From an uncultured Alphaproteobacteria bacterium (lineage in GTDB: Bacteria; Pseudomonadota; Alphaproteobacteria; Micropepsales; Micropepsaceae), in contig CAIUCH010000001.1 of NCBI GenBank assembly GCA_903897605.1, forward strand, positions 1 to 64,000: a stretch of 64,000 bases of DNA. The letters run 5' to 3'. The notes beneath the pieces were generated by a model. That model did no database searches. It had not been told where the DNA came from and worked only from the letters and a program-made list of their open reading frames with translations. Made by a program: the position numbers and the translations under genes. Below, piece by piece: positions 4,904 to 22,946 of the stretch (position 1 is its first letter; every line of letters begins with the position of its first letter).

Positions 4904-5608
4904 CTAGCGGTGCCGGCCCCCGAACCCATGGCCGCCGCCGAACCCATGGCCACCGCCGAACCCAAAGCCGAACGAGATGCCCGGCCCGTAATAGGGATAA
5001 TAAGGATAGGGATACGGCCCATAGCCATAATAATAGGGCGGCGGGCCATAGGCGCCCGGCGGATAAGCGCCTGGAGGCGGTGGCGGGCCATAACCGCCCG
5101 CGTAATCGGCCTCGTCCGGACCGTTATCGGCCTCGCCCATGCAGGCATAATAGGCCGACGCATAATTGCGCTCGACATCGCTAGCCGCCCGGCGGGCATT
5201 GTCGGCCCCGACGGCGGTGCCGCCGATCAGTCCGGCACCGGCGCCGATCGCAGCGCCCGCGCCGGCATTGCCCGCTGCAGCGCCAATGGCGGCGCCCAGG
5301 GCAGCGCCACCCAAGGTTCCAAGGACGGTGCCGTTGGTCTGTTCATGGCTGGCCGCCTGGCCCGGGGTGACATAGCCGGTACGCGCCGCGGCATCGCGGC
5401 GGCAGAACAAGTCGCGCGACCGTTGATCCTGTGCGTTGGGGGGCGGACCGTAGTTCGGACCGTAGTTCGGATTATTGTACGAACCCCCATTCGCGTTGGG
5501 ACCGGACAATTGTGCCGGCGGCGCGTTGGGGCCGTCGGCTGGCTGGGCGACCGCGGCGGCGCTCATCAGCGCCAAGGTCAACGCGGCCAAACTGGTTGTA
5601 CGAATCAT
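4904..5608 (-). CDS. Secreted glycine-zipper protein with Pro/Tyr/Gly-rich tail
   Basis: This is a probable envelope-associated protein of 234 aa. A signal peptide ends at about AVAQ (residue 22). The middle (about residues 96-135) is a glycine zipper of repeated GxxxG (for example GTLGGAALGAAIGAAAG), as in outer-membrane glycine-zipper proteins. The C-terminus is Pro/Tyr-rich (PPYYYGYGPYPYPYY) and ends in GFGGGHGFGG repeats. The only cysteines are in DLFCRRD and YACMGE, which could form a disulfide. The ATG at 5608 has a GAGG ribosome site. A shared direct-repeat operator lies 107 bases upstream, suggesting control with two other envelope genes in the window. Confidence 0.85.
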   Translation of the reverse strand: MIRTTSLAALTLALMSAAAVAQPADGPNAPPAQLSGPNANGGSYNNPNYGPNYGPPPNAQDQRSRDLFCRRDAAARTGYVTPGQAASHEQTNGTVLGTLGGAALGAAIGAAAGNAGAGAAIGAGAGLIGGTAVGADNARRAASDVERNYASAYYACMGEADNGPDEADYAGGYGPPPPPGAYPPGAYGPPPYYYGYGPYPYPYYPYYGPGISFGFGFGGGHGFGGGHGFGGRHR

Positions 5609-5714: not shown

Positions 5715-5732
5715 GTTCATCCTGCGTTCAGG
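5715..5732. promoter_or_regulatory. Candidate OmpR-type response-regulator box (site 1)
   Basis: GTTCA occurs at 5715 and again at 5726, an 11-bp period like PhoP-type boxes. Read toward the glycine-zipper gene it is CCTGAACGCAGGATGAAC. The site at 17745-17762 reads CCTGAACGCAGCATGAAT, which is 16 of 18 identical and in the same orientation relative to its gene. Confidence 0.55.
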
Positions 5733-5781
5733 TGTGCGAACTTCTGATGTGACCGCAATCTTGACGCAGTTGCAGGTCCGT

Positions 5782-5853
5782 CTCCCCTTTGCGCGAAGCG
5801 CTGAAAGGGGAGGTGCCCGCAGCTGGCTCTCGAGCCAGCGAAGGGCGGAGGGG
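5782..5853 (-). repeat. Structured intergenic repeat, family B, copy 1
   Basis: The element starts CCCCTCCGCCC, has a central hairpin GCTGGCT-CGAG-AGCCAGC, then GGGCACCTCCCC and a closing GGGGAG arm. It matches copies at 12576-12652 and 54617-54687 in architecture, but the central stem differs in sequence while staying fully paired. It lies downstream of the 457-aa gene and upstream of the glycine-zipper gene. Its inverted orientation is judged from the asymmetric flanks. Confidence 0.75.
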
Positions 5854-5860
5854 ATGAAGT

Positions 5861-7234
5861 TTAAGCCGCGGCGGACTGGGCCGCGCGGGTACGCCGGCGG
5901 ACAAGTTCCGCTTCCTCAAGGCCAAAGATGAAAGCAGCAAGTTCGGCGCAATAAAGCAGCTGCGACTCGACCGTCGCGCGCTTTTCGGCATTGCAACCTT
6001 TGTATTCGCGTACAGCGTCTTCGATATAACGGCGCAAATGATTGGAAATGTCGTCGAAGGCGGTTTTCTGCTTGGCAGCAAATGATCCGGCGGCAGCGGA
6101 ATTGCGTGTCCCCGCCACCAGCCGCGCATAATTGAGTCCCATGGCGCGCTTGTCGGCCGGGGTCAGCTTGCTGAAGTCGCCGGAGCCTTTGTGCATCGGC
6201 AATGCCCCGCTGAATTCCTTGGCGGCGCGATCCATGAAGCCTTCCATCACGTCGCCGATGGCGGTGCGGTCTTTCAAAAGCCGCTGGCCCCATTCGCCGT
6301 CGCGCCGCACTTCCAGCTCCTTGACCACGGCGCTGGAAAGGTCGGCGAAGTTGCCGACTTGCGCCATCAAGGTCTCCGCATCGAACAGCGGATGGCGGGT
6401 CGCCATGATCGTGACCTTCAGGGCATCCATGCGCGCGAACAGGATTTCACCGATCAGGCCCATATCGGTCTTGGAAATCAGCGCGTCATTGGTTTGGCGC
6501 GACACCATCAGCGGCAGGCGCAATGCCTCGCATGGATGCTGCAACCGGTTCATCGCCACCACGGCGACAAAGGGCGCGACATCGGGATTGCGTACGATCA
6601 GCGCGTCATAGCTTTCGCGCAATTGCCACAGAATATCCTCGGTCAGATGTGCCAGGGGCTTGGGCAGCCGTTCCTGGATTTTCACCATCTCCGCGCCTTC
6701 GAGCAGCAGCAGCGCCATCTCGCGCGCATCCGAGATTTCGTCCCCGCTCATTCTTTTTTTCGCGGCGGCGATCCCCGCATCGCTCGCCAGCGCCTGGAGC
6801 ATCGCCGCGCCTGCCTTGGCCCAGTAGGGCCGCGCCAAAATCTTCGCCTGGTCCAGCTTGCCCGACAGGATCAAGGCCTTGGCGTCGCGAAAATAGACTT
6901 GCGATTCATTCGCCAGCAGATCGCTGCTCAGCCAAGCCCAGACCGGCACCACACTGCTGCGTACGATGACGGCTTTTTGCTTGCCCTTGCGCGATTCCGA
7001 AACCAGCAGGTCCGCGAACGGTTGGCAGAACAGCCGAAGCGGCGTCTGGGTGCGGCTGGAATGGAGTAGCGAGGCCCGCAGACCGGCCAGAATGACGTCA
7101 TGGGGTAAACCATGACCGTCCATCAGGCGGTCCATCTCGACAGCTTGGGCAAGCTTGCTTGCAGCCGCTTCAGGCAGACGCCCCAGGAAATTCTGCAGCA
7201 GGCCGGCTTTTTCGTCGGTCAAATTCTTACTCAA
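5861..7234 (-). CDS. Unrecognised 457-aa cytosolic protein
   Basis: I do not recognise the family. The protein has no signal peptide or membrane segment and appears mostly alpha-helical. Repeated helical pairs with a DxxV/xAL pattern (around MLQALASDAG, EDILWQLRESYDAL and SKTDMGLIGEILFARMDAL) suggest an alpha-alpha superhelix of the kind seen in DUF2336-type proteins, but this is only resemblance. The C-terminus is basic (RRRTRAAQSAAA). The likely start is TTG at 7234, since no ATG occurs before residue 33; no clear ribosome site precedes it. It is followed by family B repeat copy 1 and is separated by 57 bases from the histidine kinase stop. Confidence 0.75.
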   Translation of the reverse strand: MSKNLTDEKAGLLQNFLGRLPEAAASKLAQAVEMDRLMDGHGLPHDVILAGLRASLLHSSRTQTPLRLFCQPFADLLVSESRKGKQKAVIVRSSVVPVWAWLSSDLLANESQVYFRDAKALILSGKLDQAKILARPYWAKAGAAMLQALASDAGIAAAKKRMSGDEISDAREMALLLLEGAEMVKIQERLPKPLAHLTEDILWQLRESYDALIVRNPDVAPFVAVVAMNRLQHPCEALRLPLMVSRQTNDALISKTDMGLIGEILFARMDALKVTIMATRHPLFDAETLMAQVGNFADLSSAVVKELEVRRDGEWGQRLLKDRTAIGDVMEGFMDRAAKEFSGALPMHKGSGDFSKLTPADKRAMGLNYARLVAGTRNSAAAGSFAAKQKTAFDDISNHLRRYIEDAVREYKGCNAEKRATVESQLLYCAELAAFIFGLEEAELVRRRTRAAQSAAA

Positions 7235-7291
7235 CGCAGGCAGTTTCGCCTGTTCACACTAGCGGTAACGTCGTTAACGCAGCCTTGCGGA

Positions 7292-8668
7292 TCACTGGAT
7301 GGCGGGCAGGGTCAGACGGGCTTCAAGCCCCCCCAGCGCAGAGGCATCCAGCCCCAGAAAACCCCCATAAAGCTTGGAAATATCCCGCACGATGGCCAAC
7401 CCCAGGCCCGAGCCCGGCACGCTTTCGTCCAGCCTTTCGCCCCTGTTCCCCACCCGGGCCCGATCTTCGGGGCTGAGGCCGGGGCCGTCATCCTCCACCG
7501 TCAGGATGACGCGTGCACCGTCACGCAAGGCCTTCACCCTGACCCGCGCCTTGGCCCATTTGCAGGCATTGTCCATCAGGTTGCCCGCCATCTCTTCCAG
7601 GTCCTGGCGCTCGCCGCGGAAATAAAGTTCGGCCGGACAATCCCAATCGACGGTGATGGCGCGCTCGGCATGGATGCGAGTGAGCACGCGGGCAAGATCG
7701 GACAAAACCGGATCCACCGGCGTACGATTGCCCAGCACATTGATGCTGCCGGCGGCGCGGGCGCGCGCAAGATAATGATCTACCTGACGGCGCATGGTGT
7801 CGACCTGACGGCGCACCTGATCCGACAAAGGCCCGGGCTCCGCCTCCGCTTCGCTCGCCAACACGCTCAGTGGCGTCTTGAGAAAATGTGCGAGATTCGA
7901 CACATGGGTGCGGGCGCGGCCCACCACTTCGTTGCTATGTTCGATCAGGGAATTGAGTTCGGCGGCCAATGGCGCGATCTCGGCGGGAAATTTCCCTTCC
8001 AGATGCTGGGCGCTACCGTCACGGATGCGGGCCAAGGCATCCTTGAGACGGCGCAGCGGCAACAGGCCGACCCGCACCTGCAGGAACACGGCCGCGACAA
8101 GACCAAACCCCAGAAGCACAAATGACCAGATCAAGGTGCCGTCGAAGGCGGCGCTTTCCGCATCCACGGTCTGCAGATTGCCGGCCACCATGAAAATATA
8201 GGCGCGGGTGTCGCTGGGTTGCGGCGTGGCGCTGATGGGAAATTCCACCCGGCGCGATAGAACCCGAAGGTCCTGATTCTCCGGTCCGGTGGCGAAGCCA
8301 TAACTGATCGCGCCGCGTTTGACATTGCCGGTGACGCGCAGCACCTGGTCGAACAGCGAACGCGAGATCTGCCCGCCCTGCCCCGTCACCGGCTTGATCT
8401 GATAATAAAGCCCGGAATAGACGCGATCGAATTGGTGATTGACGAAGCGGTCCTGCAGGATGACGCCGCCTTCCGGATCGGGCTCGGCCGCGGCGATCAG
8501 CCCATCCATGTCGACGGCGAGCCGGGCGTCGAAACTGTCCTCGGCGGCATTGCGGAAAGCATTGGACAGGACCACCCCGCCCGCGATCAGGCCAAGCGTG
8601 GTCCAGATCGCCGCCGCCGCGATCAGGCGCGCGGCGAGCGAGTTAAGCCGGAAGATGGCTGGTCCCAA
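7292..8668 (-). CDS. Sensor histidine kinase of OmpR-type two-component system
   Basis: This inner-membrane kinase phosphorylates the regulator encoded just upstream. Membrane segments lie at about residues 12-36 and 178-198 and enclose a periplasmic sensor domain of about 140 residues. A HAMP-like linker follows, then the H-box with His261 (LAHFLKTPL), N-box (NLMDNACKWAK), G1 (DDGPGL) and G2 (GSGLGLAIV). The form resembles PhoQ/QseC-type kinases. The start is a TTG inside the regulator gene, giving a 26-base overlap; no ATG or GTG fits the N-terminal membrane segment. Overlap implies translational coupling. The stimulus is unknown; an envelope signal is inferred from the PepSY-like neighbour. 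Confidence 0.92.
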   Translation of the reverse strand: MGPAIFRLNSLAARLIAAAAIWTTLGLIAGGVVLSNAFRNAAEDSFDARLAVDMDGLIAAAEPDPEGGVILQDRFVNHQFDRVYSGLYYQIKPVTGQGGQISRSLFDQVLRVTGNVKRGAISYGFATGPENQDLRVLSRRVEFPISATPQPSDTRAYIFMVAGNLQTVDAESAAFDGTLIWSFVLLGFGLVAAVFLQVRVGLLPLRRLKDALARIRDGSAQHLEGKFPAEIAPLAAELNSLIEHSNEVVGRARTHVSNLAHFLKTPLSVLASEAEAEPGPLSDQVRRQVDTMRRQVDHYLARARAAGSINVLGNRTPVDPVLSDLARVLTRIHAERAITVDWDCPAELYFRGERQDLEEMAGNLMDNACKWAKARVRVKALRDGARVILTVEDDGPGLSPEDRARVGNRGERLDESVPGSGLGLAIVRDISKLYGGFLGLDASALGGLEARLTLPAIQ

Positions 8669-9329
8669 GGGCGGGGTCTTCCAGGCTGTAGCCCAGGCCG
8701 CGCACCGTCTGGATCAGATTGGCGTCCAGCTTCTTGCGCAGCCGGCCGACGAAAACTTCGATGGTGTTGGAGTCGCGGTCGAAATCTTGATCGTAAAGAT
8801 GTTCGACCAGCTCGGTGCGCGACACCACTTTGCCGCGATGATAGGCCAGATAAGCGAGCAAGCGATATTCCAGGCTGGTGAGTTTGACCGGATTGCCGTC
8901 CAGGGTGACGCGGCTGGCGCGCGTATCGATATGCAGCGGGCCGATATCGATGTCGGCGGTGGCGAAGCCGGCGGCGCGGCGCAGCAGCGCCCGCAGCCGC
9001 GCCAGCAATTCCTCGGTGTAAAAAGGCTTGGCGAGATAATCATCGGCGCCGGCGTCGAAGCCCGCCACCTTGTCGCTCCAGCGGTCGCGCGCGGTCAGGA
9101 TCAGTACCGGCATGGTCTTGCCGGCCTTGCGCCATTTTTCCAGCACCCGCACGCCATCGAGCTTGGGAAGGCCCAGATCCAGCACCACGGCGTCATAAGG
9201 TTCGGTGTCGCCGAGGAAATGGCCTTCCTCGCCATCGGCGGCGGCATCCACGACATAGCCGGCCTCGCCCAGCGCCTTTTTCAGCAGACGCTGCAGATCC
9301 TTGTCATCTTCCACCAGCAGAATACGCAT
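8643..9329 (-). CDS. OmpR/PhoB-family response regulator
   Basis: A 228-aa DNA-binding response regulator. The receiver domain starts MRILLVEDDKD, with phospho-acceptor Asp51 (VVLDLGLP) and the conserved Thr and Lys (LILTARD, DYLAKPF). The C-terminal winged-helix domain carries the family pattern (LTSLEYRLLAYLA, then VVSRTELVEHLYD, then VFVGRLRKKL and TVRGLGY). I chose the ATG at 9329 because it has a strong AGGAGAG ribosome site and a standard receiver N-terminus; the open frame extends upstream through the PepSY-like gene. It is the best candidate to bind the 11-bp-period direct repeats upstream of three envelope genes in this window. Confidence 0.95.
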   Translation of the reverse strand: MRILLVEDDKDLQRLLKKALGEAGYVVDAAADGEEGHFLGDTEPYDAVVLDLGLPKLDGVRVLEKWRKAGKTMPVLILTARDRWSDKVAGFDAGADDYLAKPFYTEELLARLRALLRRAAGFATADIDIGPLHIDTRASRVTLDGNPVKLTSLEYRLLAYLAYHRGKVVSRTELVEHLYDQDFDRDSNTIEVFVGRLRKKLDANLIQTVRGLGYSLEDPALGTSHLPA

Positions 9330-9336
9330 TGCTCTC

Positions 9337-9852
9337 CTAGTGCCCGCGGCGCCGACCGCCCAATCCTTCGCGGCCACCGAAGCCGCCGCGCCCGCCAAAA
9401 TCACGATTCCCAAAATCGCCGCGACCACCATAACCGCCGCCGCCCGGCGGTCCATAGCCGCCAAAATCGCGGCGCTCCATTTGCGGTGCGGGAATGGAGG
9501 GCGCAGGTGCGAAATTGCGGCGCGCGCCTGGAGCATCGAAAGCATCGCGCCCCGGCGACGCACCCAGCACCCGGCCGGTGCGCGCATCGGTGTCGAGCCA
9601 TTCGATGCGCCCATCCGGCCGCATCCATTTGAGGTGATAATGCTCCGAGCCGCCAGGACCCATGGTCGGGCCGTCGGCATCATAGAATTCGCCGGGGTGC
9701 GAGCGGCGAACTTCGGGAAGAATGCGGTCCAGGGGCTGAACGCCGGAAGCGCGATCTGGTGGACCGGCATCAAAACGCCGCGCCTGGGCCAGCGCCGGTC
9801 CCGAAAGACCGATGGCCAAAGCCGCTACCAGAAGAACAAAGCCCAGGCGCAT
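9337..9852 (-). CDS. Secreted PepSY-like protein with Gly/Arg-rich tail
   Basis: This 171-aa exported protein has a signal peptide (MRLGFVLLVAALAIGLSG, cleavage after ALAQ). Residues about 30-95 contain a PepSY-like pattern (LDRILPEVRRSHPGEFYDAD, then YHLKWMRPDGRIEWLDTDARTG), as found in small periplasmic proteins encoded beside OmpR-type two-component systems. The last 60 residues are low-complexity Gly/Arg/Phe repeats (RDFGGRGGFGGREG). The ATG at 9852 is preferred; a GTG two codons earlier is possible. It is seven bases upstream of the regulator gene, so it heads the operon and may modulate the sensor kinase. That role is inference. Confidence 0.8.
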   Translation of the reverse strand: MRLGFVLLVAALAIGLSGPALAQARRFDAGPPDRASGVQPLDRILPEVRRSHPGEFYDADGPTMGPGGSEHYHLKWMRPDGRIEWLDTDARTGRVLGASPGRDAFDAPGARRNFAPAPSIPAPQMERRDFGGYGPPGGGGYGGRGDFGNRDFGGRGGFGGREGLGGRRRGH

Positions 9853-9876
9853 GGCCACTTTTTAGCCTTTTTCAAA

Positions 9877-9913
9877 TGAACCTCAAATGAACGCGCCAGC
9901 CAGAAGGCGTTCA
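9877..9913. promoter_or_regulatory. Candidate OmpR-type response-regulator boxes (site 2), divergent promoter
   Basis: TGAAC occurs at 9877-9881 and 9888-9892, an 11-bp period and the same orientation toward the 9982 gene as sites 1 and 3 have toward theirs. A further GTTCA half-site is at 9909. The region separates the two-component operon from the 9982 gene, so it could serve autoregulation as well as activation. Confidence 0.55.
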
Positions 9914-9981
9914 GCCAGGTCCTCCTAGATTACGCTCCATGGACGGGATCGCTCCTGTCCGCACGGTTAAAGGAGATCAAA

Positions 9982-10305
9982 ATGATTGGCACGAAGATCC
10001 TTCTGGCCGCCGCCGCGCTGGCGGTCTCGAGCCTGGCCGGCACGGCCAACGCTGCGCCGTGGGACCATAACGGCAATCGTTTCGATCATCGCCCCGCTCC
10101 GGTCGTCCGTCACGAATTCCATCGTCCGTATGTGGAACACGTCCGCATCACCGACACGCTTCGCTTCCGGCATTATCGCGGCATCGGCGATCCCACTTTC
10201 GTCCGCGGCCATTATGTGGTGCGCACCATCAATCCCTTCGGCCGCACGGTCTTCGTGGAAGTGGACCCCTATAGCGGCGCCTTCATCGGTGAATTCCGGA
10301 TTTGA
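9982..10305 (+). CDS. Small secreted basic protein
   Basis: A 107-aa exported protein of unknown function. It has a strong ribosome site (AAAGGAG) and a signal peptide (MIGTKILLAAAALAVSSLAG, cleavage near NAAP). The mature part is rich in His and Arg (HRPAPVVRHEFHRPYVEHVR) and ends with a compact beta-like segment (GHYVVRTINPFGRTVFVEVD, then YSGAFIGEFRI) that resembles half of a PepSY fold; the resemblance is weak. It is transcribed divergently from the two-component operon, with the direct-repeat box 90 bases upstream, so it is a likely target of that regulator. A rho-independent terminator follows. Confidence 0.82.
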   Translation: MIGTKILLAAAALAVSSLAGTANAAPWDHNGNRFDHRPAPVVRHEFHRPYVEHVRITDTLRFRHYRGIGDPTFVRGHYVVRTINPFGRTVFVEVDPYSGAFIGEFRI

Positions 10306-10331
10306 GAAAAATCCGGATCTGAGCTTGGGCA

Positions 10332-10417
10332 TAGAACCCATGGTATGCCCCTCCCCATAGGGTTCTAGGCTGTCAAGGAAAAGCCCGCGTTTCTCCCGAG
10401 ACGCGGGCTTTTCATTT
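10332..10417. terminator. Terminator hairpin preceded by a second inverted repeat
   Basis: AAGCCCGCGT (10381-10390) pairs with ACGCGGGCTT (10401-10410), followed by a T-rich tail; the preceding A-run lets it act in both directions. Just before it, TAGAACCC (10332-10339) and GGGTTCTA (10360-10367) form another inverted repeat, extended by ATGG/CCAT. Confidence 0.85.
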
Positions 10418-10489
10418 TCAAGACAGGCTTGGCCCATCCCCATCCGCGAGCCTTGAAACCGCCGCAAATATCGGTGCTTTATTTCCGCC

Positions 10490-12571
10490 ATGCCGCACAG
10501 CAAAGGCCCGCCGCCGCTTCATGATTGGACGCGCGATATTATTCGCGTGGCCGATCGGCTGGTGCCGGGTGCTACCATCGTCCTGACCGCGCTGGTTGTG
10601 CCGGCAGCCTTGCTCTATCTGCTGCCATCCTTTTTGGGCCTGTTCGCCGCGCCGCCCGATCCTTCGATCGATCTCTATACTGTGAACCGTCCCATCGCCT
10701 TCATGTTTCTGGATGCGGACGGCAACGATGTCGGCCATCGCGGCGCGGTGGTGGGCGAGCGTCTCAAGCTGGAAGACATGCCGGCCTATCTGCCCGCCGC
10801 CTTCATCGCCATGGAGGACCGGCGCTTCTATTCCCACAACGGCATCGATCCGCGCGGACTGGCTAGAGCCTTGTTTCTGGATCTGCGCGCCGGGCATCTG
10901 GTGGCGGGCGGTTCGACCATCTCCCAGCAGACCGCCAAGATCGTCTACACCGGACAAGAGCGCACCATGTCGCGCAAGCTCACCGAGTTGATGGACGCGG
11001 CGGGGCTGGAGAAGTCGCTCAGCAAAAAGCAGATCCTGGAACTCTATCTCAATCGCATCTATCTGGGTTCGGCCGCCTATGGTGTGGATGGCGCGGCACA
11101 TGTCTATTTCGGCATTTCAGCGCGCAATCTGACCCTTGCCCAGGTGGCGATGCTGGCGACCCTGACGCGGGCGCCGTCTGTCTTCTCGCCGCGCCGCGAT
11201 CTGCTCAAGGCCCAGCAGCGCGCCAGCCTGGTGCTGGACGCGATGACCCAGACCGGCGCCATCAGCCAAGAAGCCGCCGACGATGCCAGGGCGCATCCCG
11301 CCATCATCGCCGACAATACCATTCTGGATGCGCGCAACTATTTTCTTGACACCGCCGCCGATCAGGCCAAGCAGATGGCCGCCCAGGCCGGCGCCAAGCC
11401 CAATGCCGATCTGATTGTCCACACCACGCTGGAAACGAAATTGCAGGAAGGCGCCCGGCTGGCGGCCACGCATGTCATCGGAAAATTCGGCAAGCATGAC
11501 CGCACCCAGGAGGCGGCGGTGGTGATGATGAAGCCCGATGGCGCGGTATCGGCGCTGTTGGGCGGCGTCGATTATCAGAACTCGGTGTTCAACCGCGCGA
11601 TGCAGGCTCGCCGCCAGCCCGGCTCGGCCTTCAAACCCTTTGTCTATCTGGCGGCACTGGAAGACGGCATCTCGCCCTGGGACGAACGCGACGATGTCGC
11701 GGTCGATATCAATGGCTATCAGCCGCAAAATTTCGGCGGTCATTATTACGGCACTTTGACCCTGGCCGACGCGCTGGCCCATTCCGTCAACACCATTACG
11801 GTCAACCTGGCCCAGGAAGTCGGTGTGAAGAAAGTCGTTGCCGCCGCACAGCGCACCGGCATCGCCTCGCCGCTGGAGCCCAATCCGTCGCTGGCGCTCG
11901 GCACCAGCGAGGTGACGCCGCTGGAATTGACCACCGCCTATGCCGCCTTCGCCAATGGCGGCTTTCGCGTCACCCCCTATTTCATCACCGAAGTGGATGA
12001 CGCCGGCGGCAAGGCATTGTACCGCCGTGCCGCGCCGCAGCCCCAGCGCATCATCGATCACGACGTCAATCGCGATCTGGTGGCGATGTTGTGGAACGTG
12101 ACCGTGGCCGGTACCGGCACCAGCGCCTCGCTCAGCCCCCGCGAAACGGCGGGCAAGACCGGCACCACCCAGAATTCGCAGGACGCCTGGTTTGTCGGCT
12201 TCACCACCGATTACGTGACGGCGGTATGGGTGGGCAATGACGACAACACTCCCACCCGCGGCGTCACCGGCGCCACTTTGCCGGCCCAGATCTGGAAAGC
12301 CGCGATGCAGACCGCGGAAAAAGGCCTGCCGATGAAGTCTCTGGACCGTTCGCCGCCACAGCCGCCGCATGTACCGGAGGAATTGCTGGCGTCCGGCGTG
12401 CAGGGACAGCATGTCATCGTCGGCGACGACGAATCCGCCGCCGCCCTGGCGCGCGCCGAGTCTCCGCCGGAGGCCGATGCGCAGCATCGCCGCAGCGGGC
12501 TGGGACGCATTCTGGGCTGGCTGTTTGGCGACGATGACAACGATCGCGCGCCGGCAAGGCCGTCGCGCTAA
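10490..12571 (+). CDS. Class A penicillin-binding protein (transglycosylase/transpeptidase)
   Basis: A bifunctional peptidoglycan synthase of 693 aa. One membrane segment lies near residues 25-48. The GT51 glycosyltransferase domain shows EDRRFYSHNGID and GGSTISQQTAK. The transpeptidase domain carries the active-site SxxK as SAFK (RRQPGSAFKPF), the SxN motif as SVN (AHSVNTITV) and KTG (AGKTGTTQNSQDAWFVG). The C-terminal tail is charged (FGDDDNDRAPARP). The order and length fit the PBP1A/PBP1 group of alphaproteobacteria; there is no large extra domain. It is single in its transcription unit, followed by family B repeat copy 2. Which PBP1 paralogue it is cannot be decided here. Confidence 0.93.
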   Translation: MPHSKGPPPLHDWTRDIIRVADRLVPGATIVLTALVVPAALLYLLPSFLGLFAAPPDPSIDLYTVNRPIAFMFLDADGNDVGHRGAVVGERLKLEDMPAYLPAAFIAMEDRRFYSHNGIDPRGLARALFLDLRAGHLVAGGSTISQQTAKIVYTGQERTMSRKLTELMDAAGLEKSLSKKQILELYLNRIYLGSAAYGVDGAAHVYFGISARNLTLAQVAMLATLTRAPSVFSPRRDLLKAQQRASLVLDAMTQTGAISQEAADDARAHPAIIADNTILDARNYFLDTAADQAKQMAAQAGAKPNADLIVHTTLETKLQEGARLAATHVIGKFGKHDRTQEAAVVMMKPDGAVSALLGGVDYQNSVFNRAMQARRQPGSAFKPFVYLAALEDGISPWDERDDVAVDINGYQPQNFGGHYYGTLTLADALAHSVNTITVNLAQEVGVKKVVAAAQRTGIASPLEPNPSLALGTSEVTPLELTTAYAAFANGGFRVTPYFITEVDDAGGKALYRRAAPQPQRIIDHDVNRDLVAMLWNVTVAGTGTSASLSPRETAGKTGTTQNSQDAWFVGFTTDYVTAVWVGNDDNTPTRGVTGATLPAQIWKAAMQTAEKGLPMKSLDRSPPQPPHVPEELLASGVQGQHVIVGDDESAAALARAESPPEADAQHRRSGLGRILGWLFGDDDNDRAPARPSR

Positions 12572-12575
12572 ATTT

Positions 12576-12652
12576 CCCCCTCCGCCCTGCGCAACCTCGA
12601 GAGGTTGCTACGGGCACCTCCCCCGCCAGCGCGCTGGCGCGCGCAGGGGAGG
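12576..12652 (+). repeat. Structured intergenic repeat, family B, copy 2
   Basis: CCCCCTCCGCCC, then the hairpin GCAACCT-CGAG-AGGTTGC at 12591-12608, then GGGCACCTCCCCC and a variable hairpin closed by AGGGGAGG. GCCC before the hairpin pairs with GGGC after it. It lies between the PBP gene and the ABC importer. Confidence 0.75.
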
Positions 12653-12707
12653 ATGGCCTGTGCATGCATCGGCTTCTCTGAAGAGATGCGCGTGCTATAA
12701 GCGGGCG

Positions 12708-13694
12708 ATGCGTTTTCTGATTGCCGCTTTTCTATTTCTTGCGATCGCGCCCGCCGCCATGGCGCAGCCGCGCATCCACATCACTTTCGTCACAGACTGG
12801 AAAGCCCAGGCCGAACATGGCGGCTTTTACCAAGCGCTGGCCGAAGGCCTCTATGCCAAGCGCGGGCTGGACGTGACCATCCGCGAAGGCGGCCCGCAAG
12901 TGAATGTGCCCCAGCTACTGGCGGGCGGCGCGGCCGATTTCGGCATCGGCTCCAACAGCTTCATCGCGCTCAATCTGGTGAAAGAGAATGTGCCGCTGCG
13001 CGCGGTGATGGCCGTGTTCCAGAAAGATCCGCAAGTCCTGATCAGCCATCCGCGCCGCGATCTCAATTCACTGGAGGAAATGCGCGGCCATCCCATCCTG
13101 ATCTCGGACGGCGCCTTGACCAGCTTCTGGCCCTGGTTGAAGGCGCGCTGGCATTTCAGCGACAGCCAGATTCGCAAATACACTTTCAACCTCGCGCCAT
13201 TCCTGGTCGATGCCAACGCCATCCAGGAAGGCTATCTCACCAGCGAGCCGTTCACGGTGCAGCAACAGGCACATTTCACGCCCAAAGTGTTCCTGCTCGC
13301 CGATTATGGCTATCCCGGTTACGCCAACATGGTGCTGGTGCCGCAGAAATGGATCGATGCCAATCCAAGGGCAGTACAGGCCTTTTATGATGCCAGCCGC
13401 GATGGCTGGCTTGATTATCTGAACGGCAATCCCGCTCCGGCCAATGCACTGATCAAGCGTGACAATCCCGACATGACCGATGCCGTGATCGCCCAGTCGA
13501 TCGACAAGATGAAACGCTTCGGCCTGGTGACGGGCGGCGACGCGCCGGCCTTCGGCGTCGGCGGCATGACCGACAAGCGTTGGCATGATTTCTATCAGAC
13601 CATGCAGGATGCGGGGCTCTATCCCAAAGGCCTGGATATCGCCAAGGCCTATGATTTGCGTTTCATGCGGCGCGCTTTCCAGAATTTCCGATGA
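12708..13694 (+). CDS. ABC transporter substrate-binding protein, NMT1/THI5 type
   Basis: This periplasmic binding protein of 328 aa delivers a small substrate to the permease encoded downstream. The signal peptide is MRFLIAAFLFLAIAPAAMA. The mature start (ITFVTDWKAQAEHGGFYQAL) and the GLDVTIREGGP segment are typical of the THI5/NMT1 group, which includes pyrimidine-precursor (ThiY) and riboflavin (RibY) binding proteins as well as more distant sulfonate binders. The substrate is not evident. The stop overlaps the ATPase start (ATGA). The next operon encodes sulfite reductase, which would fit a sulfonate substrate, but the N-terminal motif favours a heterocyclic compound. Confidence 0.88.
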   Translation: MRFLIAAFLFLAIAPAAMAQPRIHITFVTDWKAQAEHGGFYQALAEGLYAKRGLDVTIREGGPQVNVPQLLAGGAADFGIGSNSFIALNLVKENVPLRAVMAVFQKDPQVLISHPRRDLNSLEEMRGHPILISDGALTSFWPWLKARWHFSDSQIRKYTFNLAPFLVDANAIQEGYLTSEPFTVQQQAHFTPKVFLLADYGYPGYANMVLVPQKWIDANPRAVQAFYDASRDGWLDYLNGNPAPANALIKRDNPDMTDAVIAQSIDKMKRFGLVTGGDAPAFGVGGMTDKRWHDFYQTMQDAGLYPKGLDIAKAYDLRFMRRAFQNFR

Positions 13695-14413
13695 GTCTTC
13701 TGGTCCTGAACGGCGTGGGCAAACGCTTCGACAACGGCACCGAGGCCTTGTCCGGTCTCAGCTTCAGCGTCGCGGACGGTGAATTCGTTTCGCTTCTGGG
13801 CCCCAGCGGCTGCGGCAAATCCACCGCATTGCGTCTGATCGCGGGCCTGATTGCGACAGACAGTGGCGCAATCACTTGGAGCAGCACTCGGCCCGAACTG
13901 GGTTTCGTTTTCCAGGAGCCCACCTTGATGCCCTGGGCGGATGCCTTGACCAATGCGCGCCTGCCGCTGGATTTGAAAAATATTTTGCGCGCGGATGCCG
14001 ATGCGCGCGCCATCCATGCCTTGGCGCGCATGGGGCTGAAGGATTCCGCCGGCGCCTATCCCCGCGAATTGTCCGGCGGCATGAAGATGCGTGTCTCCAT
14101 CGCCCGCGCCCTGGCGGCGGAGCCGAAGCTGCTGCTGATGGACGAACCCTTCGCCGCCCTGGACGAACCTTCGCGCCAGGCTCTGAATGACGACCTCAAG
14201 CGGCTGGCGCGCGAGGATGGCATGACCGTGATCTTCGTCACCCATAGCGTGATGGAGGCGAGCTATCTCTCGGACCGGGTGCTGGTGATGTCGGCCCGGC
14301 CAGGCCGGATCGCGGCGGAAATACCATTGCCGTCCGGCGAACGTGATCGGTTGTCGGCGGCGTTCGCCGAAAGCCAAAGACGCGTCGCGCAAGCCTTGCT
14401 GGAGGCCGCGTGA
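13691..14413 (+). CDS. ABC transporter ATP-binding protein
   Basis: The ATPase subunit of the importer, 240 aa. Walker A is GPSGCGKST (residues about 38-46), the Q-loop is VFQEPTLMPW, the signature is LSGGM and Walker B is LLLMDEPFAALDEP, followed by the switch His (VIFVTHSVMEA). It belongs to the nitrate/sulfonate/taurine/thiamin-precursor (NrtD/SsuB/ThiZ) group by its short length and QEPTLMPW Q-loop. It is coupled at both ends: ATGA overlap with the binding protein and GTGA overlap with the permease. Confidence 0.93.
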   Translation: MSLLVLNGVGKRFDNGTEALSGLSFSVADGEFVSLLGPSGCGKSTALRLIAGLIATDSGAITWSSTRPELGFVFQEPTLMPWADALTNARLPLDLKNILRADADARAIHALARMGLKDSAGAYPRELSGGMKMRVSIARALAAEPKLLLMDEPFAALDEPSRQALNDDLKRLAREDGMTVIFVTHSVMEASYLSDRVLVMSARPGRIAAEIPLPSGERDRLSAAFAESQRRVAQALLEAA

Positions 14414-15195
14414 CGCGTGCCTTCAACATCCTTCTGCCGCTCGCATTGGGCATTGCGATTCTTGCGATCTGGGAATGGACCGTCGCGGCACGTCACATCC
14501 CGGTCTATGTGCTGCCCGCGCCCAGCGCCATCGCGCGGGCGCTGGCCGCGAATTTTCCATCGCTGATGGCGTCGCTGCTCGCTACCCTCACCGTGACCTT
14601 GGAAGGTTTCGTCGCCGCGCTGGTGGCGGGCGTGGGCTTGGCCATCGCCTTCAGCCAAAGCCGGATGACGGAGCGGGCGCTTTATCCCTATGCCGTGGTG
14701 TTGCAGGTGACGCCGGTGGTGGCGATCGCGCCGTTGATCCTGATCTGGATCGGGTACGACCACATCAACGCGGCGCTGGCGTTGATCGCCGCCCTGGTCG
14801 CCTTCTTTCCCATTCTGTCCAACACCATACTGGGTCTGAAATCGGCGGATTTCAATCTGGTGGATCTGATGCGGCTCTACGGCGCGTCACGCTGGCAGAT
14901 ACTGTGGCGCCTGCGCCTACCCACCGCCCTGCCCTATCTGCTGGGGGCGATGAAGATCGCCGGCGGCCTGTCCCTGATAGGTGCGGTGGTGGCGGAATTC
15001 GTCGCCGGTTCCGGAACCGCCACCGGCCTGGCTTGGCGCATCGTCGAAGCCGGCAACCGGCTGGAGATCGCCACAATGTTCGCAGCCTTGCTGCTGCTGG
15101 CGCTGCTCGGCATCGTCATCTTCGCGGTGTTTTCGCTGCTGGAATGGATGCTTTTACGGCGGTGGCATGAGAGCGTCTTGCGCGCACAAGAATAA
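14410..15195 (+). CDS. ABC transporter permease (BPD family)
   Basis: The membrane subunit of the importer, 261 aa with about six membrane segments (for example ILLPLALGIAILAIWEWTVA near the start). The EAA loop that contacts the ATPase is seen near residues 152-175 (DLMRLYGASRWQILWRLRLP). The start is GTG overlapping the ATPase stop (GTGA). The family is that of SsuC/TauC/ThiX-like permeases; substrate unknown. After the stop lies a short AT-rich stretch with palindromic repeats upstream of the sulfite reductase cluster. Confidence 0.92.
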   Translation: MTRAFNILLPLALGIAILAIWEWTVAARHIPVYVLPAPSAIARALAANFPSLMASLLATLTVTLEGFVAALVAGVGLAIAFSQSRMTERALYPYAVVLQVTPVVAIAPLILIWIGYDHINAALALIAALVAFFPILSNTILGLKSADFNLVDLMRLYGASRWQILWRLRLPTALPYLLGAMKIAGGLSLIGAVVAEFVAGSGTATGLAWRIVEAGNRLEIATMFAALLLLALLGIVIFAVFSLLEWMLLRRWHESVLRAQE

Positions 15196-15236
15196 TACGC
15201 GTATATTATGTATAATAAAATAAACTACGCATATTA
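15195..15236. promoter_or_regulatory. AT-rich candidate operator/promoter of the sulfite reductase cluster
   Basis: ATACGCGTAT at 15195-15204 is a perfect palindrome. TACGCGTATATTA at 15196 recurs as TACGCATATTA at 15226, exactly 30 bp later (about three helical turns). TATAAT lies between them at 15211-15216. This is the most AT-rich spot nearby and sits directly ahead of the DUF2849-cysI-DUF934 genes. Confidence 0.5.
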
Positions 15237-15283
15237 GATGTTGAAGTATTGATTTTGCGGCCGCGAAATGTGATTTGACGGCT

Positions 15284-15595
15284 ATGCCCTTGTCCGCCCT
15301 CAAAATCCTGACCGCCAATCACCTTCGCACTGGCGACGTGCTGTATTGGCAGGGCACCCGCTGGGTCGAGACCTTGGCGCAGGCCAATGTCTTTGCCGAC
15401 GACGCCGCCGCCGAAACGGCCCTCGCGAAATCCCAGAAATCGGTCACCGCCAATCAGGTGGTCACGCCTTACCTGTTCGAGGTGCGGCAGGGAAAAGACG
15501 GCCTGCAGCCCATTAAAGAGCGCGAGATCATCCGCAGCCTGGGTCCCAGCGTGCGAACCGACACCGGCAAGCAAGCTGAACATGTACAGATATGA
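15284..15595 (+). CDS. DUF2849 protein linked to sulfite reductase
   Basis: A small cytosolic protein of 103 aa of the DUF2849 family, which in alphaproteobacteria is almost always found directly upstream of the sulfite reductase hemoprotein. The family pattern is visible (LTANHLRTGDVLYWQG, then a C-terminal half beginning VTPYLFEV). Its biochemical role is unknown; an accessory function in sulfite reduction is inferred from gene context. The ATG at 15284 is chosen over a TTG three codons earlier. Its 3' end overlaps the start of the reductase gene by 14 bases, indicating translational coupling. Confidence 0.85.
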   Translation: MPLSALKILTANHLRTGDVLYWQGTRWVETLAQANVFADDAAAETALAKSQKSVTANQVVTPYLFEVRQGKDGLQPIKEREIIRSLGPSVRTDTGKQAEHVQI

Positions 15596-17243
15596 CGAAT
15601 TCGATTCCCGCTTTGTGGCGGAGCGGGTCGAGCAATTCCGCCATCAGATCGCGCGGCGCCTCTCGGGCGCTTTGACCGAAGACCAGTTCAAGCCGCTGCG
15701 GTTGATGAACGGCCTCTATCTCCAGCTTCACGCCTATATGCTGCGCGTCGCCATTCCATACGGCACGCTGGCAGGCCGGCAATTGCGCAAGCTGGCGCAT
15801 ATCGCCCGCAAATATGACAAGGGCTTTGGCCATTTCACCACCCGCACCAACATCCAGTTCAACTGGATCAAGCTGGTGGACGTGCCCGACATTCTCGCCG
15901 AACTCGCCGAGGTGGAAATGCATTGCATCCAGACCTCCGGCAATTGCATCCGCAATGTCACGGCCGACCACTTCGCCGGCGCCGCGGATGACGAGATCGA
16001 GGATCCCCGGCCGCTGGCCGAGATCATCCGGCAATGGTCCAGCCTGCATCCCGAATTCGTTTTCCTGGCCCGCAAATTCAAGATCGCGGTGGGCGCATCA
16101 CCGCATGATCGCGCCGCCTTGCAATATCATGATCTTGCGGTGGAGATCGTCCGCGATGCCGATGGCCGGGTGGGCTACAAGGTGCTGGCCGGCGGCGGCA
16201 TGGGGCGCACGCCCACCATCGCTCAAGTGATGCGCGAATTCGTCGAGCGCGAAGACATTCTGTCCTATCTGGAAGCCGTGCTGCGCGTTTACAATCAGGA
16301 CAGCCGCCGCGACAATCTCCACAAGCAACGCATCAAGATTCTTGTCAACGCCATCGGCATCGAAGAAATGCGCGCCCGCGTGGCCCGCGAGTTCGACGAG
16401 ATCAAACGCGCGGGCAGTTTGCAATTGCCGCCGGAAGAGTTGGCGCGCATCGCCGCTTATTTCGCGCCGCCCGCGTTCGAGACTTTGGCGGACGACATGC
16501 CGGTGGGCGAAATCGATTTCGAGAACTGGAAAAAATCCAATATCCATCGCCATCGCACGCCCGGCAATGCCATCGCCACCATTTCCCTGAAAGCCATCGG
16601 CCAGATTCCCGGCGATGCCAGCGCCGACCAAATGGAGGGACTGGCCGATCTGATGGACGCGTTTGACCTGGAAGAAATTCGCGTCAGCCATGAACAAAAT
16701 CTGGTGCTGCCGCATGTGCGCCAGAAGGATCTGCCGGCGATCTTCGCCCGGCTAAAGGCGCTGGATCTCGCCACCCCCAATGCGGGGCTGATCAGCGACA
16801 TCATCGCCTGCCCCGGCCTGGATTATTGCGATCTCGCCAATGCCCGCTCGATTCCGGTGGCCCAGGCGATCGCGCGGCGCTTCGCCGATCTGGAGCGCCA
16901 GCATGACATCGGTGAGCTGAAGCTCAAGATCTCGGGCTGCATCAATGCCTGCGGCCATCACCATGCCGGCCATATCGGCATCCTGGGCGTCGACAAGAAA
17001 GGGGTCGAATATTACCAGCTCCTGCTGGGCGGTTCGGGCGCGGAAGACGCCGCGATCGGCCAGATCATGGGTCCCGGATTCGGCGCGCATGAGATTGCCG
17101 ATGCGGTGGAGCGGGTGGTGAATCTCTATCTGAAGGAACGCACCGCCGGTGAACGCTTCCTCGACACCTATCGCCGCGTTGGCATGGAGCCGTTCAAATA
17201 CATCGCCTATCAGGAACAGATGAATGCCGCTTATAACGGTTGA
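15582..17243 (+). CDS. cysI: Sulfite (nitrite/sulfite) reductase hemoprotein
   Basis: This 553-aa siroheme/4Fe-4S enzyme reduces sulfite to sulfide in cysteine biosynthesis. Two ferredoxin-like half-domains and two catalytic halves are recognisable. The cluster ligands are in CPGLDYC and, about 40 residues later, CINAC, matching the C-x5-C ... C-x3-C pattern. Positively charged substrate-site residues lie in FTTRTNIQFNW. No flavoprotein subunit (CysJ) is nearby, so electrons probably come from ferredoxin. Context (DUF2849 before, DUF934 after) supports sulfite rather than nitrite as substrate. Confidence 0.92.
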   Translation: MYRYDEFDSRFVAERVEQFRHQIARRLSGALTEDQFKPLRLMNGLYLQLHAYMLRVAIPYGTLAGRQLRKLAHIARKYDKGFGHFTTRTNIQFNWIKLVDVPDILAELAEVEMHCIQTSGNCIRNVTADHFAGAADDEIEDPRPLAEIIRQWSSLHPEFVFLARKFKIAVGASPHDRAALQYHDLAVEIVRDADGRVGYKVLAGGGMGRTPTIAQVMREFVEREDILSYLEAVLRVYNQDSRRDNLHKQRIKILVNAIGIEEMRARVAREFDEIKRAGSLQLPPEELARIAAYFAPPAFETLADDMPVGEIDFENWKKSNIHRHRTPGNAIATISLKAIGQIPGDASADQMEGLADLMDAFDLEEIRVSHEQNLVLPHVRQKDLPAIFARLKALDLATPNAGLISDIIACPGLDYCDLANARSIPVAQAIARRFADLERQHDIGELKLKISGCINACGHHHAGHIGILGVDKKGVEYYQLLLGGSGAEDAAIGQIMGPGFGAHEIADAVERVVNLYLKERTAGERFLDTYRRVGMEPFKYIAYQEQMNAAYNG

Positions 17244-17712
17244 CGGGTTTCGCGACGACGCCTTCGCGCGCCTTGCGGATGACGCGCCTCTGCCGAATGG
17301 CCCGGTGCTGGTATCGCTTTCCCGCTTCCGGGCGGAACGCCACGCCCTGACCGCCCGCAATGCCGCGCTCGGCGTGATGCTCAAATCCGAGGAATCTCCC
17401 GAGCGCCTGGGCGACGATGTGCACCGCTTCTCGCTGATCGCGCTGGAGTTCCCCAAATTCCGTGATGGCCGCGCCTTTTCCTGGGCGCGGATGCTGCGCA
17501 CCCGGTTTCAATTCCGCGGCGAGATCCGGGCGGTCGGCGATTTCCTGGTCGACCAGATCGCCTATCAGCGCCGGGTCGGCTTCGATGCATGGGAAGTCGC
17601 GGAGGATTTTGCCCTCGAAGACCTGCATCGCGCCTTTTCGGAGATCCGCAATGTCTATCAGCCCTCGGCGGATAGGCGCATGACCATCCGCCAATTGCGC
17701 GCAGCCCTTTGA
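17224..17712 (+). CDS. DUF934 protein of sulfate assimilation cluster
   Basis: A 162-aa cytosolic protein of the DUF934 family, usually encoded beside cysI and cysH. The family motif is clear (LEFPKFRDGRAFSWARMLR), followed by RGEIRAVGDFLVDQ and a C-terminal helical part. The function is unknown; it has been regarded as an oxidoreductase-associated factor on context only. It overlaps the cysI 3' end by 20 bases in another frame, so it is translationally coupled. cysH, often the next gene, is absent here. Confidence 0.88.
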   Translation: MPLITVDGFRDDAFARLADDAPLPNGPVLVSLSRFRAERHALTARNAALGVMLKSEESPERLGDDVHRFSLIALEFPKFRDGRAFSWARMLRTRFQFRGEIRAVGDFLVDQIAYQRRVGFDAWEVAEDFALEDLHRAFSEIRNVYQPSADRRMTIRQLRAAL

Positions 17713-17740
17713 AACCGACTCGGGCCGGACACGATTCCGG

Positions 17741-17762
17741 TGAACCTGAACGCAGCATGAAT
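17741..17762. promoter_or_regulatory. Candidate OmpR-type response-regulator box (site 3)
   Basis: TGAAC at 17741 and 17747 and TGAAT at 17758. The last two have an 11-bp period and form CCTGAACGCAGCATGAAT, nearly identical to site 1 read toward its gene. The site ends 92 bases before the Spy-like start codon. Confidence 0.55.
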
Positions 17763-17853: not shown

Positions 17854-18495
17854 ATGCGCAAAGCCCTTATCCCCATGCTCGCATCCTTGGCGCTGTGCGG
17901 CGCGGCGACGGTGGGGCTGGTCGCCACCAACGCCCGTGCGCAGACAAGTCCCAGAAAACCGGTTATGGCGGCGCTGGTCGCGCCCGGCACCATGCTGGCG
18001 CAAGAAACCCCACCCGGTCCGCCCCGCGATGAACTGCGCGATATGCGGAGCCCCGCCGACATGGCTGCGCACATCAAGCAGATGTGCGAAGACCAATACG
18101 CCCGCGAAGTGGGCCAAATGGCCTATCTGGAAACCCGTCTCGCTCTCACGCCCGCCGAGCAGCCTTTGTTCGCGCGCTGGAAGGGTGTCAAACTTGACGT
18201 CGCCAAGAGACGTACCGCCGATTGCGGCCAGCGGGTGACGCGGCATGATCGCACGGCGGAAGGCCCGGTCGATCGAATGGGCCGTGAAGAGGATGTGCTG
18301 AAAAAGCGCATCGCCGATCTCGATGCCGAGCGCCCCGCGCTTGCCGCGCTTTACGGCGCGCTGACGCCGCAGCAGCGCGAAGCCTTGTCACCGCATCGCC
18401 ACGACATGACGGCGGGCGGCATGATGGACCGTGAGATGATGCGCCGTGGGCCCATGGAGATGGGCGCTCAACCGCCGCCCCCGCCGCCGCAGTGA
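17854..18495 (+). CDS. Spy/CpxP-like LTxxQ-motif periplasmic protein
   Basis: An exported helical protein of 213 aa. The signal peptide is MRKALIPMLASLALCGAA, with cleavage near ARAQ. Two family motifs are present (LTPAEQPLFARW and LTPQQREAL), as in Spy and CpxP, which are periplasmic chaperone-like stress proteins. Two cysteines (QMCEDQ and ADCGQR) could form a disulfide. The C-terminus is Met-rich then poly-Pro (MMDREMMRRG, PPPPPPQ), which might bind metal. The ATG at 17854 has an AGGA ribosome site; an upstream in-frame ATG lies in the operator region and is unlikely. A strong terminator follows. Control by the nearby OmpR-type system is inferred. Confidence 0.85.
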   Translation: MRKALIPMLASLALCGAATVGLVATNARAQTSPRKPVMAALVAPGTMLAQETPPGPPRDELRDMRSPADMAAHIKQMCEDQYAREVGQMAYLETRLALTPAEQPLFARWKGVKLDVAKRRTADCGQRVTRHDRTAEGPVDRMGREEDVLKKRIADLDAERPALAALYGALTPQQREALSPHRHDMTAGGMMDREMMRRGPMEMGAQPPPPPPQ

Positions 18496-19783: not shown

Positions 19784-20962
19784 CTAGTCCTGGTCAGGAC
19801 CGAACTTCGCCCGCTCCAGCTCCTCGGCCACACGGGCGCGGATGCGCGCTCTCAGATGCGCCTTGGCGCGGTCCATTTCACCACGGTCGCGGTCATAGTC
19901 TCCGTCATCATTCGTCAACGCCTGCAGGACCGCCGCCCGGATGGCGTCATCCTCAAGCCGGGCATGGCGCTCATGCGTGTGCCTGTCCTGGCGCGTGCCA
20001 TCGGGATGGGTGATATACCCGCTTCCGGCGATCGAGGCGTCCAGCTTTTTCGGCTCGCTGCGCAGAATCACATCGCCGGAGCCTGCGATCCCGACATTCA
20101 ACGACTCTTGGGGCGCGACCTCGACTTCACTGCTGCCGTCAATGTCGACATCGGCGGTTCTGGCCGTCAGGCCACCTAGCCTGGCGTCACCTGAACCTCT
20201 CACATCGACTTTCAAGATGTCGGCCGTGCCCGTCGCTTTGATGCCACCGGAACCTGCGCCCGTGATGTCGACGCGCGATGCGCCCTGGGGGGCGATCTCG
20301 ACGTCGCCGCTGCCTGCGATGGTCACATTGGCGTTCTTGACCACAAGATTGCCCAGCTTGGCATCGCCGGATCCCTGTACATTCACCTCCAGATCGTCGG
20401 CATTGCCGGTAGCCGCAAGCGTGCCCGAACCGGTGATCACAGCCTTCAGACGGCCGATCTTGCCGTCGGCCTCGATATTGCCGGAGCCTTCGACGGAGAT
20501 TCTCGCCTCCGGCTGGGAAAGCGCGGCCAGACGCATGTCACCACTGCCGAGTTGCTCGAAGGCCCGGAAATCGCGTCCCGGCAACGTCACCTCGATGCGT
20601 TCGGCGTTGCTGTGAAAAAAATTACCTGTCCGGCAATCGATCCCCACCAGACCGTTCCGGACATAGACATGCGAGATGATCCGGGAATCGCCCTTGATGA
20701 CAAGCTGATCACCGCTGCCCGCGCGGTAATACGTATTGGCTACCACTGCCACGGCGGCGCGGTCGCCGTTGCCGTCCCATGGCAAAGTCCGGCTAGTGGT
20801 GGTGGACGGACCGGTGGTGTCGCAGCGCGGCAGGCTGAAATCCCCAATATCGAAAATGGTGTTGCCGATGGCGCTGCCGCCCAGCGCGAAGGCGCCACCC
20901 AAGCAGATCGCCGAGATGACAAATCCGGATACTGCAATAGCTGCGAGTCTGGTGCGCATCAT
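19784..20962 (-). CDS. DUF2807 (GIN domain) secreted adhesin-like protein, paralogue 2
   Basis: A 392-aa exported protein of the DUF2807 family (putative auto-transporter adhesin head, GIN domain), predicted to form a right-handed beta-helix. The signal segment is MMRTRLAAIAVSGFVISAIC. The body contains repeats of the GSGD type (for example VQGSGDAKLGN, VRGSGDARLGG, AGSGDVIL) about every 20-40 residues. The C-terminus is a charged helix (DRDRGEMDRAKAHLRARIRA). It is closely similar to the upstream gene and longer by about two repeat units, so it arose by tandem duplication. Start and upstream stop overlap as ATGA. Confidence 0.88.
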   Translation of the reverse strand: MMRTRLAAIAVSGFVISAICLGGAFALGGSAIGNTIFDIGDFSLPRCDTTGPSTTTSRTLPWDGNGDRAAVAVVANTYYRAGSGDQLVIKGDSRIISHVYVRNGLVGIDCRTGNFFHSNAERIEVTLPGRDFRAFEQLGSGDMRLAALSQPEARISVEGSGNIEADGKIGRLKAVITGSGTLAATGNADDLEVNVQGSGDAKLGNLVVKNANVTIAGSGDVEIAPQGASRVDITGAGSGGIKATGTADILKVDVRGSGDARLGGLTARTADVDIDGSSEVEVAPQESLNVGIAGSGDVILRSEPKKLDASIAGSGYITHPDGTRQDRHTHERHARLEDDAIRAAVLQALTNDDGDYDRDRGEMDRAKAHLRARIRARVAEELERAKFGPDQD

Positions 20963-21894: not shown

Positions 21895-21895
21895 A

Positions 21896-22486: not shown

Positions 22487-22809
22487 GACGCGTCTCCTAG
22501 GATCTTCGCGACGGCGATTTCAAAGGCGGCCCATTCGGCCCGCTGCGATTTCAACGCGGCGGCGCCGGCTTTGGTCAGCTTGTAATATTTGCGCGGCGGG
22601 CCGCTGGCGGATTCCTGAAGATAGGTGGTGACCAGGTCGTCATTCTGCATCCGGCGCATCAGGGGGTAGATGGTGCCTTCGCCCATACCCACCGCGTCGG
22701 CCATCTGGGACGCGATTTCATAGGCGTAATTGTCGCCTTTGGAGAGCAGCGCTAGCACGCACATCTCCAGGACGCCTTTCTTCAACTGGACTTGCAGATC
22801 CTCCGACAT
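22483..22809 (-). CDS. PadR-family transcriptional regulator
   Basis: A 108-aa winged-helix regulator of the short PadR-s2 type. The DNA-binding part is typical (LKKGVLEMCVLALLSKGDNY, GEGTIYPLMRRMQND, GPPRKYYKLTKAG). The C-terminal helix (AEWAAFEIAVAKIL) would form the dimer. The ATG at 22809 is chosen since it gives the usual family N-terminus and has an AAGGG ribosome site. It heads the DUF1700-DUF2807 operon and most likely represses it; the imperfect inverted repeat TACC-N4-GGTA at 22820-22831, just upstream of the start, is a candidate operator. Confidence 0.93.
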   Translation of the reverse strand: MSEDLQVQLKKGVLEMCVLALLSKGDNYAYEIASQMADAVGMGEGTIYPLMRRMQNDDLVTTYLQESASGPPRKYYKLTKAGAAALKSQRAEWAAFEIAVAKILGDAS

Positions 22810-22946
22810 GGGACCCTTATACCGCATGGTACTGTGTAGCGCAAGATAGCATAATTTGGCGGAATCCCTGCCTTTCGCCGGTGGTCAGCACCGCAATCCG
22901 TGCGGCATCGAACCAATCCTTAAGGCGAAAATGGGACCATGCCGGG

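Follow-up and report, generated by a model that had tools for sequence, protein, structure and literature searches.

A putative envelope-stress system of the FeuNPQ kind, in which a PepSY-like protein takes the place of FeuN, and its candidate operator, in an uncultured alphaproteobacterium

Results

Genes and direct repeats at the locus

The window (the whole stretch of 64,000 nucleotides that was analysed) carries genes for a secreted PepSY-like protein, an OmpR-family response regulator and a sensor histidine kinase in one operon, a divergent gene for a small secreted protein, and, on either side, genes for a glycine-zipper and a Spy-like protein. The features are listed below; a box is called direct where GTTCA reads toward the gene and reversed where TGAAC does.

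4904..5608, minus strand: secreted protein with a glycine zipper, resembling YMGG but scoring just under the Pfam cut-off
5715..5730, minus strand: box before the glycine-zipper gene, reversed, 106 nt from the start; also reversed in 21 of the 26 genus loci where the gene was located
7292..8668, minus strand: sensor histidine kinase; among NCBIfam models it fits PhoQ best, though far short of the cut-off
8643..9329, minus strand: OmpR-family response regulator, FeuP-like (Pfam; relatives)
9337..9852, minus strand: secreted PepSY-like protein, encoded first in the operon; start at the ATG 9852
9859..9864, minus strand: predicted −10 element TAAAAA, 12 nt behind box 1; TA there in 30 of 30 genus loci
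9877..9892, minus strand: box 1, GTTCA-N6-GTTCA, direct for the PepSY-regulator-kinase operon; box present in 30 of 30 genus loci and in 77 of the best 80 regulator loci listed
9898..9913, plus strand: box 2, AGCCA-N6-GTTCA with a decayed first half, in direct orientation for the small secreted gene; TGAA at the exact offset in 28 of 30 genus loci
9926..9931, plus strand: predicted −10 element TAGATT for the small secreted gene, 12 nt downstream of box 2
9982..10305, plus strand: small secreted protein with a weak PepSY likeness at the C-terminus
17747..17762, plus strand: reversed box upstream of the Spy-like gene, at 91 nt from its start
17854..18495, plus strand: secreted protein of the LTXXQ family, Spy-like (Pfam match made with the longer frame that opens at 17761)

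The pattern TGAAC-N6-TGAAY has exactly three matches in the 64 kb window (5715-5730 on the minus strand, 9877-9892 and 17747-17762 on the plus strand), where 0.16 are expected, and none of 100 shuffles of the window reached three: the repeats are real and not the product of chance. The initial annotation had placed them upstream of the glycine-zipper, small secreted and Spy-like genes, and its positions, its gaps to the start codons (106, 89 and 91 nt) and the shared orientation, with TGAAC reading toward the named gene at each, all stand. It also located the site at 9877-9892 correctly, but the assignment of that site to the small secreted gene is incomplete: it is in direct orientation for the divergent operon. 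Judged from related loci, it would belong first to the PepSY-regulator-kinase operon, with the small secreted gene probably served by a second box.

Predicted promoter of the PepSY-regulator-kinase operon

Box 1 stands 24 nt before the ATG of the operon. Details of its context are available from 55 of the best 80 regulator loci listed (see below), namely those that carry box and intervening gene: in these, T is found at position 13 behind the box in 93% and A at position 14 in 100%. The start codon of the first gene commonly lies 24-25 nt behind the box, near the expected start of transcription, and the transcript of the PepSY operon is therefore predicted to be leaderless. The ATG at 9852 is favoured as the start of the PepSY gene over the GTG upstream of it (9858), which is probably not used. 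Two places in the source genome combine box, 12 nt and TA, and the PepSY operon is one of them.

This arrangement is that of PhoP of Salmonella, which has been described as working from direct boxes placed 12 or 23 nt ahead of the −10 element and from reversed boxes farther out (PMC3335776). The likeness extends to the direct repeat of 11 bp, to the direct box 12 nt before the −10 element of the PepSY operon and to the occurrence of reversed boxes farther upstream of other genes. The earlier description of the boxes as PhoP-type holds for their architecture and fails for the half-site, which is GTTCA here as opposed to GTTTA in PhoP.

Behind the other direct-reading boxes among the inspected sites, TA at positions 13-14 is rare (3/47). 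A relaxed pair (A at position 14, T at position 18) was sought after this result, so its counts are after the fact: among 27 hand-picked direct sites A14 is present in 85% and T18 in 78%, and the pair is in register in 19/27 and in at most four at any other offset tried, but 9/25 comparison sites also have it. The 27 sites come from rows in which the called gene has the box in direct orientation, leaving out L221 and L238 (the two PepSY operons), L004, L224, L231, L232, L234 and L252.

A second box for the small secreted gene

In 28/30 genus loci a TGAA is found exactly 21 nt upstream of box 1. Read toward the divergent gene, the element to which it belongs is mostly GTCCA-N6-GTTCA; in the window its first half reads AGCCA. 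TA is present 12 nt behind this box in 16 of the 20 loci counted with a homologue of the small secreted gene (called by tblastn, some of them partial) and in none of the ten without. Conservation of the box, together with a TA that tracks the presence of the gene, suggests that an operator and a −10 element of its own serve the small secreted gene. The box is nonetheless kept in 8/10 loci that lack the gene, and so may also serve the PepSY operon. The small secreted protein itself matches the PepSY model at its C-terminal end with E 0.011, under the cut-off.

Boxes of the glycine-zipper, Spy-like and other genes

The glycine-zipper gene was matched in 45 of 69 genomes of the genus; 30 loci were taken and the gene was located in 26. 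Boxes were found in 22 of the 26: one is direct, and the other 21, which mostly lie 114-150 nt ahead of the start, are reversed; the remaining four loci have no box at this gene. The Spy-like gene, matched in 47/69 genus genomes, has a box in 22 of the 30 loci taken and none in eight. Eight of these boxes are reversed and lie 104-112 nt ahead of the start; the 14 direct ones are mostly found near 95 or 65 nt. The exact repeat is present in only one of the 30 loci. By sequence comparison, then, the Spy-like gene appears to have retained its box while the orientation changed among related species: a case of operator turnover. A TTCAGCGGCG-like stretch upstream of the Spy-like gene (L185-L214) is common to many reversed and direct loci.

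Since the glycine-zipper and Spy-like boxes of the window are reversed and far upstream, they may act in either direction. One alternative is that they are bound but repress, or act only via neighbouring transcripts, with activation confined to boxes having a −10 element at 12 nt. Both boxes are reversed here, and by our reading of the alignment the glycine-zipper box lies some 70 nt before the likely −10 element, beyond the reversed boxes quoted for PhoP; yet 14 of the 22 boxed Spy-like loci carry a direct box, some of them with an A/T-type −10 element 12-13 nt behind it, which suggests activation of the same gene. We regard this alternative as unlikely but not negligible, and activation from a distance as the likelier mode at both genes.

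Further sites stand before secreted proteins elsewhere in the source genome (C13:10523, C43:35270, C44:48598 and C44:49202), and genes similar to these targets recur beside sites in other genomes. Two adjoining secreted-protein genes (L009 and L010, C44:48598-49217) each have a direct box, and the same pair is found in one relative (G011, L235). The frame beyond the second box of this pair presumably encodes a GroES-like protein.

Two neighbouring segments were noted from their Pfam matches. Directly before the Spy-like gene and its box, genes for a DUF2849 protein, a nitrite/sulfite reductase and a DUF934 protein lie in a row (15284-17709). On the minus strand at 19787-22827 are genes for a PadR-type regulator, a HAAS-domain protein and two tandem DUF2807 (head GIN domain) proteins; this segment is possibly a second envelope cassette in which the DUF2807 gene has been duplicated.

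The box accompanies the regulator across Alphaproteobacteria

The source of the window lies near Rhizomicrobium: the six best named regulator matches listed are 87-91% identical, and one is a Rhizomicrobium metagenome-assembled genome. We searched the 1000 nt upstream of the nearest relatives of the regulator for (A/G)TTCA-N6-(A/G)TTCA, using the best 80 named alphaproteobacterial loci listed (among them Rhizomicrobium, Roseibium, Bosea, Mesorhizobium, Bradyrhizobium and Maricaulis). The box was present in 77, against a background of 0.25% in simulated sequence; with many of the loci being close kin, these are not 77 independent events. Within the 1000 nt searched the box was absent at L064, L084 and L094. 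The exact reversed pattern was found at none of the 80; with one mismatch allowed, reversed elements appear at six (L015-L019 and L042), and in L015-L019 the element is the second box.

At 22 of the 77 boxed loci, most of them from Bradyrhizobium and related genera, no gene intervenes and at most 150 nt separate the box from the regulator. At these loci (within L028-L081) the PepSY/FeuN-like gene is missing and TCATCT stands at the place of the −10 element.

Family regulators share a style of recognition, and the targets are spread across the source genome; the boxes could thus be bound by another OmpR-family regulator encoded elsewhere, for instance a UzcR-like or PhoP-like one, the neighbouring system being just one of its targets. 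We consider this improbable. The box goes with the operon of the 8643-9329 type in 77 of the best 80 loci listed, whereas within the source genome it accompanies no other member of the family: among 11 OmpR-family regulators (L298 and L304 included), each inspected from its DNA-binding domain upstream over as much as 1500 nt, only 8643-9329 has it. UzcR of Caulobacter was rejected as a candidate: its published site, given as CATTAC-N6-TTAA, differs from the window boxes. The adjacent OmpR-family regulator very probably has its operators in the three repeats, and comparison among loci strongly supports both this operator identity and the predicted promoter design.

The repeat is not a random word

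The initial annotation had proposed a genome-wide count of the repeat and a search for enrichment near signal-peptide genes. The frequency is not random: the source genome has 14 sites of TGAAC-N6-TGAAY, whereas the reversed pattern occurs twice. Across 60 family genomes, drawn from a larger group, TGAAC-N6-TGAAC has 464 sites versus 65 reversed controls, with sites exceeding controls in 59/60. Varying the spacing in the source genome gave nine sites at period 11, an average of 1.94 at other periods outside the codon frame and a maximum there of six, at period 22 (which is twice the period of the box). Period 9, in the codon frame, also gave nine, so spacing alone is weak evidence.

Position and gene content set the sites apart. 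Intergenic sites make up 11/14 in the source genome and 38/42 in six others, versus 11/40 controls with other spacings (taken from 79 rows). The predicted enrichment was also found: a signal-peptide gene lies downstream of 8/14 source-genome and 24/42 other-genome sites but of 1/40 controls (8/14 versus 1/40, Fisher p 2e-5), as called with a simple, home-made gene caller and signal-peptide rule; one of the eight, L006, rather resembles a membrane transporter. Six of the 14 source-genome sites have no called signal-peptide gene behind them, three of these being inside coding sequence. The 42 sites comprise all those listed for G042, G046, G011 and G012, five of G038 and one of G020.

The equal abundance of period 9 words might suggest that the repeats arose by chance or codon usage and do nothing; the probability of this is negligible given the shuffles, the reversed-pattern control in 60 genomes, the intergenic excess and the retention of the box at the same place across species.

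The PepSY-like protein and the kinase

The PepSY-like protein of the window has no Pfam match to PF03413 even at E 1; of 19 aligned relatives, 13 match it at E up to 1 (best 2.7e-9). A profile of the first-gene protein compared with one of wider relatives gave 98.6%, the two alignments sharing two sequences. The core of the structure model (pLDDT over 90) gave Z scores of 8.9 with CD1622, 8.3 with YpmB and 7.4 with YpeB, near the stated background of the tool, and the top Foldseek matches of the model were Rv0603 (E 0.08) and YpmB (E 0.25).

The kinase finds its best match in the PhoQ model, and here lies both a likeness to and a difference from PhoP-PhoQ: both proteins are far below the NCBIfam cut-offs (regulator versus PhoP, 202.5 of 336 bits; kinase versus PhoQ, 150.2 of 497 bits), and membership of PhoP-PhoQ was rejected on this account.

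Discussion

Relation to known systems

Circuits of this kind are already known from other bacteria. In Sinorhizobium meliloti, feuNPQ is named as a gene set (PMC5929573), FeuN is described as binding and damping FeuQ (PMC12486126), and a motif TTCA-N7-TTCA (motif 3), borne by feuN among other genes, has been proposed as the FeuP site (PMC3616915). The system of the window shares with FeuNPQ the order small secreted protein, regulator, kinase and the candidate site before the first gene. For S. meliloti the likeness is one of gene order and candidate site; protein sequences were compared with Mesorhizobium loci, which have the same box and gene order and regulators 70-72% identical among the matches listed. 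The first gene differs, encoding a PepSY-like protein with a long tail here, whereas the Mesorhizobium FeuN-like proteins are shorter and only partly alignable. A first profile comparison of these with the PepSY set gave 2.8% probability, a broader one 91.9% over 37 columns, and no PepSY protein was among the 50 Foldseek matches listed for a Mesorhizobium FeuN-like model. The targets differ also: those reported for FeuP include ndvA, whereas the candidate targets here are glycine-zipper, Spy-like and other secreted proteins.

In Vibrio cholerae the PepSY protein DbfQ is encoded before DbfR-DbfS and binds the kinase, and the DbfQRS pathway responds to outer-membrane damage, with positive autoregulation suggested (PMC12714742). 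As there, the gene for a secreted protein, here a PepSY-like one, directly precedes regulator and kinase; the likeness is one of proteins and gene order, and kinase binding, reported for DbfQ, is proposed here by analogy. The DbfQ paper (PMC12714742) does not mention FeuN, and among the titles listed in a literature search on PepSY proteins with two-component systems in Alphaproteobacteria none concerned the present system.

The half-site is the candidate FeuP word and not GTTTA of PhoP, which argues for a system of the FeuNPQ kind where a PepSY-like protein stands in for FeuN, as in DbfQRS. On sequence evidence we take the window to encode such an envelope-stress system, together with its probable operator and secreted-protein targets.

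A model of the circuit

From the sites, their conservation, their register with the −10 element and their gene context we infer the following circuit, in which the repeat is the operator of the FeuP-like regulator 8643-9329; we hold it, with considerable confidence, to be the best explanation. The kinase (7292-8668) would sense a disturbed envelope and phosphorylate the regulator, which would bind GTTCA-N6-GTTCA as a head-to-tail dimer. At direct boxes the bound regulator would replace the −35 element, 12 nt before the −10 element, and activate transcription. Its own operon, PepSY gene first and predicted leaderless, would thereby come under positive autoregulation; the divergent small secreted gene would be activated via the second box, and other secreted-protein genes would be activated too. 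At the reversed and more distant boxes of the glycine-zipper and (here) Spy-like genes, activation from a distance seems likelier than repression. Finally, the secreted PepSY-like protein would most likely bind the sensor domain of the kinase and damp it, as reported for FeuN and DbfQ, by analogy with which such feedback is plausible.

The small envelope-stress regulon first proposed for this locus survives as a shared set of envelope and secreted genes tied to the adjoining OmpR-family regulator, its own operon included.

A wider reading is conceivable, and we put its chances at somewhat below even: that rhizobial FeuNPQ, Vibrio DbfQRS and the system of the window are one ancient module, FeuN being a pared-down PepSY domain. 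The alphaproteobacterial operator and promoter design (box, 12 nt, −10 element, start codon at the start of the transcript) would then have been kept while the regulon was rewired; the doubled operator here would fire two PepSY-like proteins in opposite directions, and target boxes would flip between related species. If the link between FeuN and PepSY is true, results on DbfQ and FeuN would be mutually transferable.

For a soil lineage that has received little study, the analysis yields a candidate operator and targets of an envelope-stress system, both open to experiment. It also indicates that a single candidate motif, reported for Sinorhizobium, may hold across much of Alphaproteobacteria. 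In the Spy-like gene, moreover, the lineage offers a natural series of promoters with the same box in either orientation.
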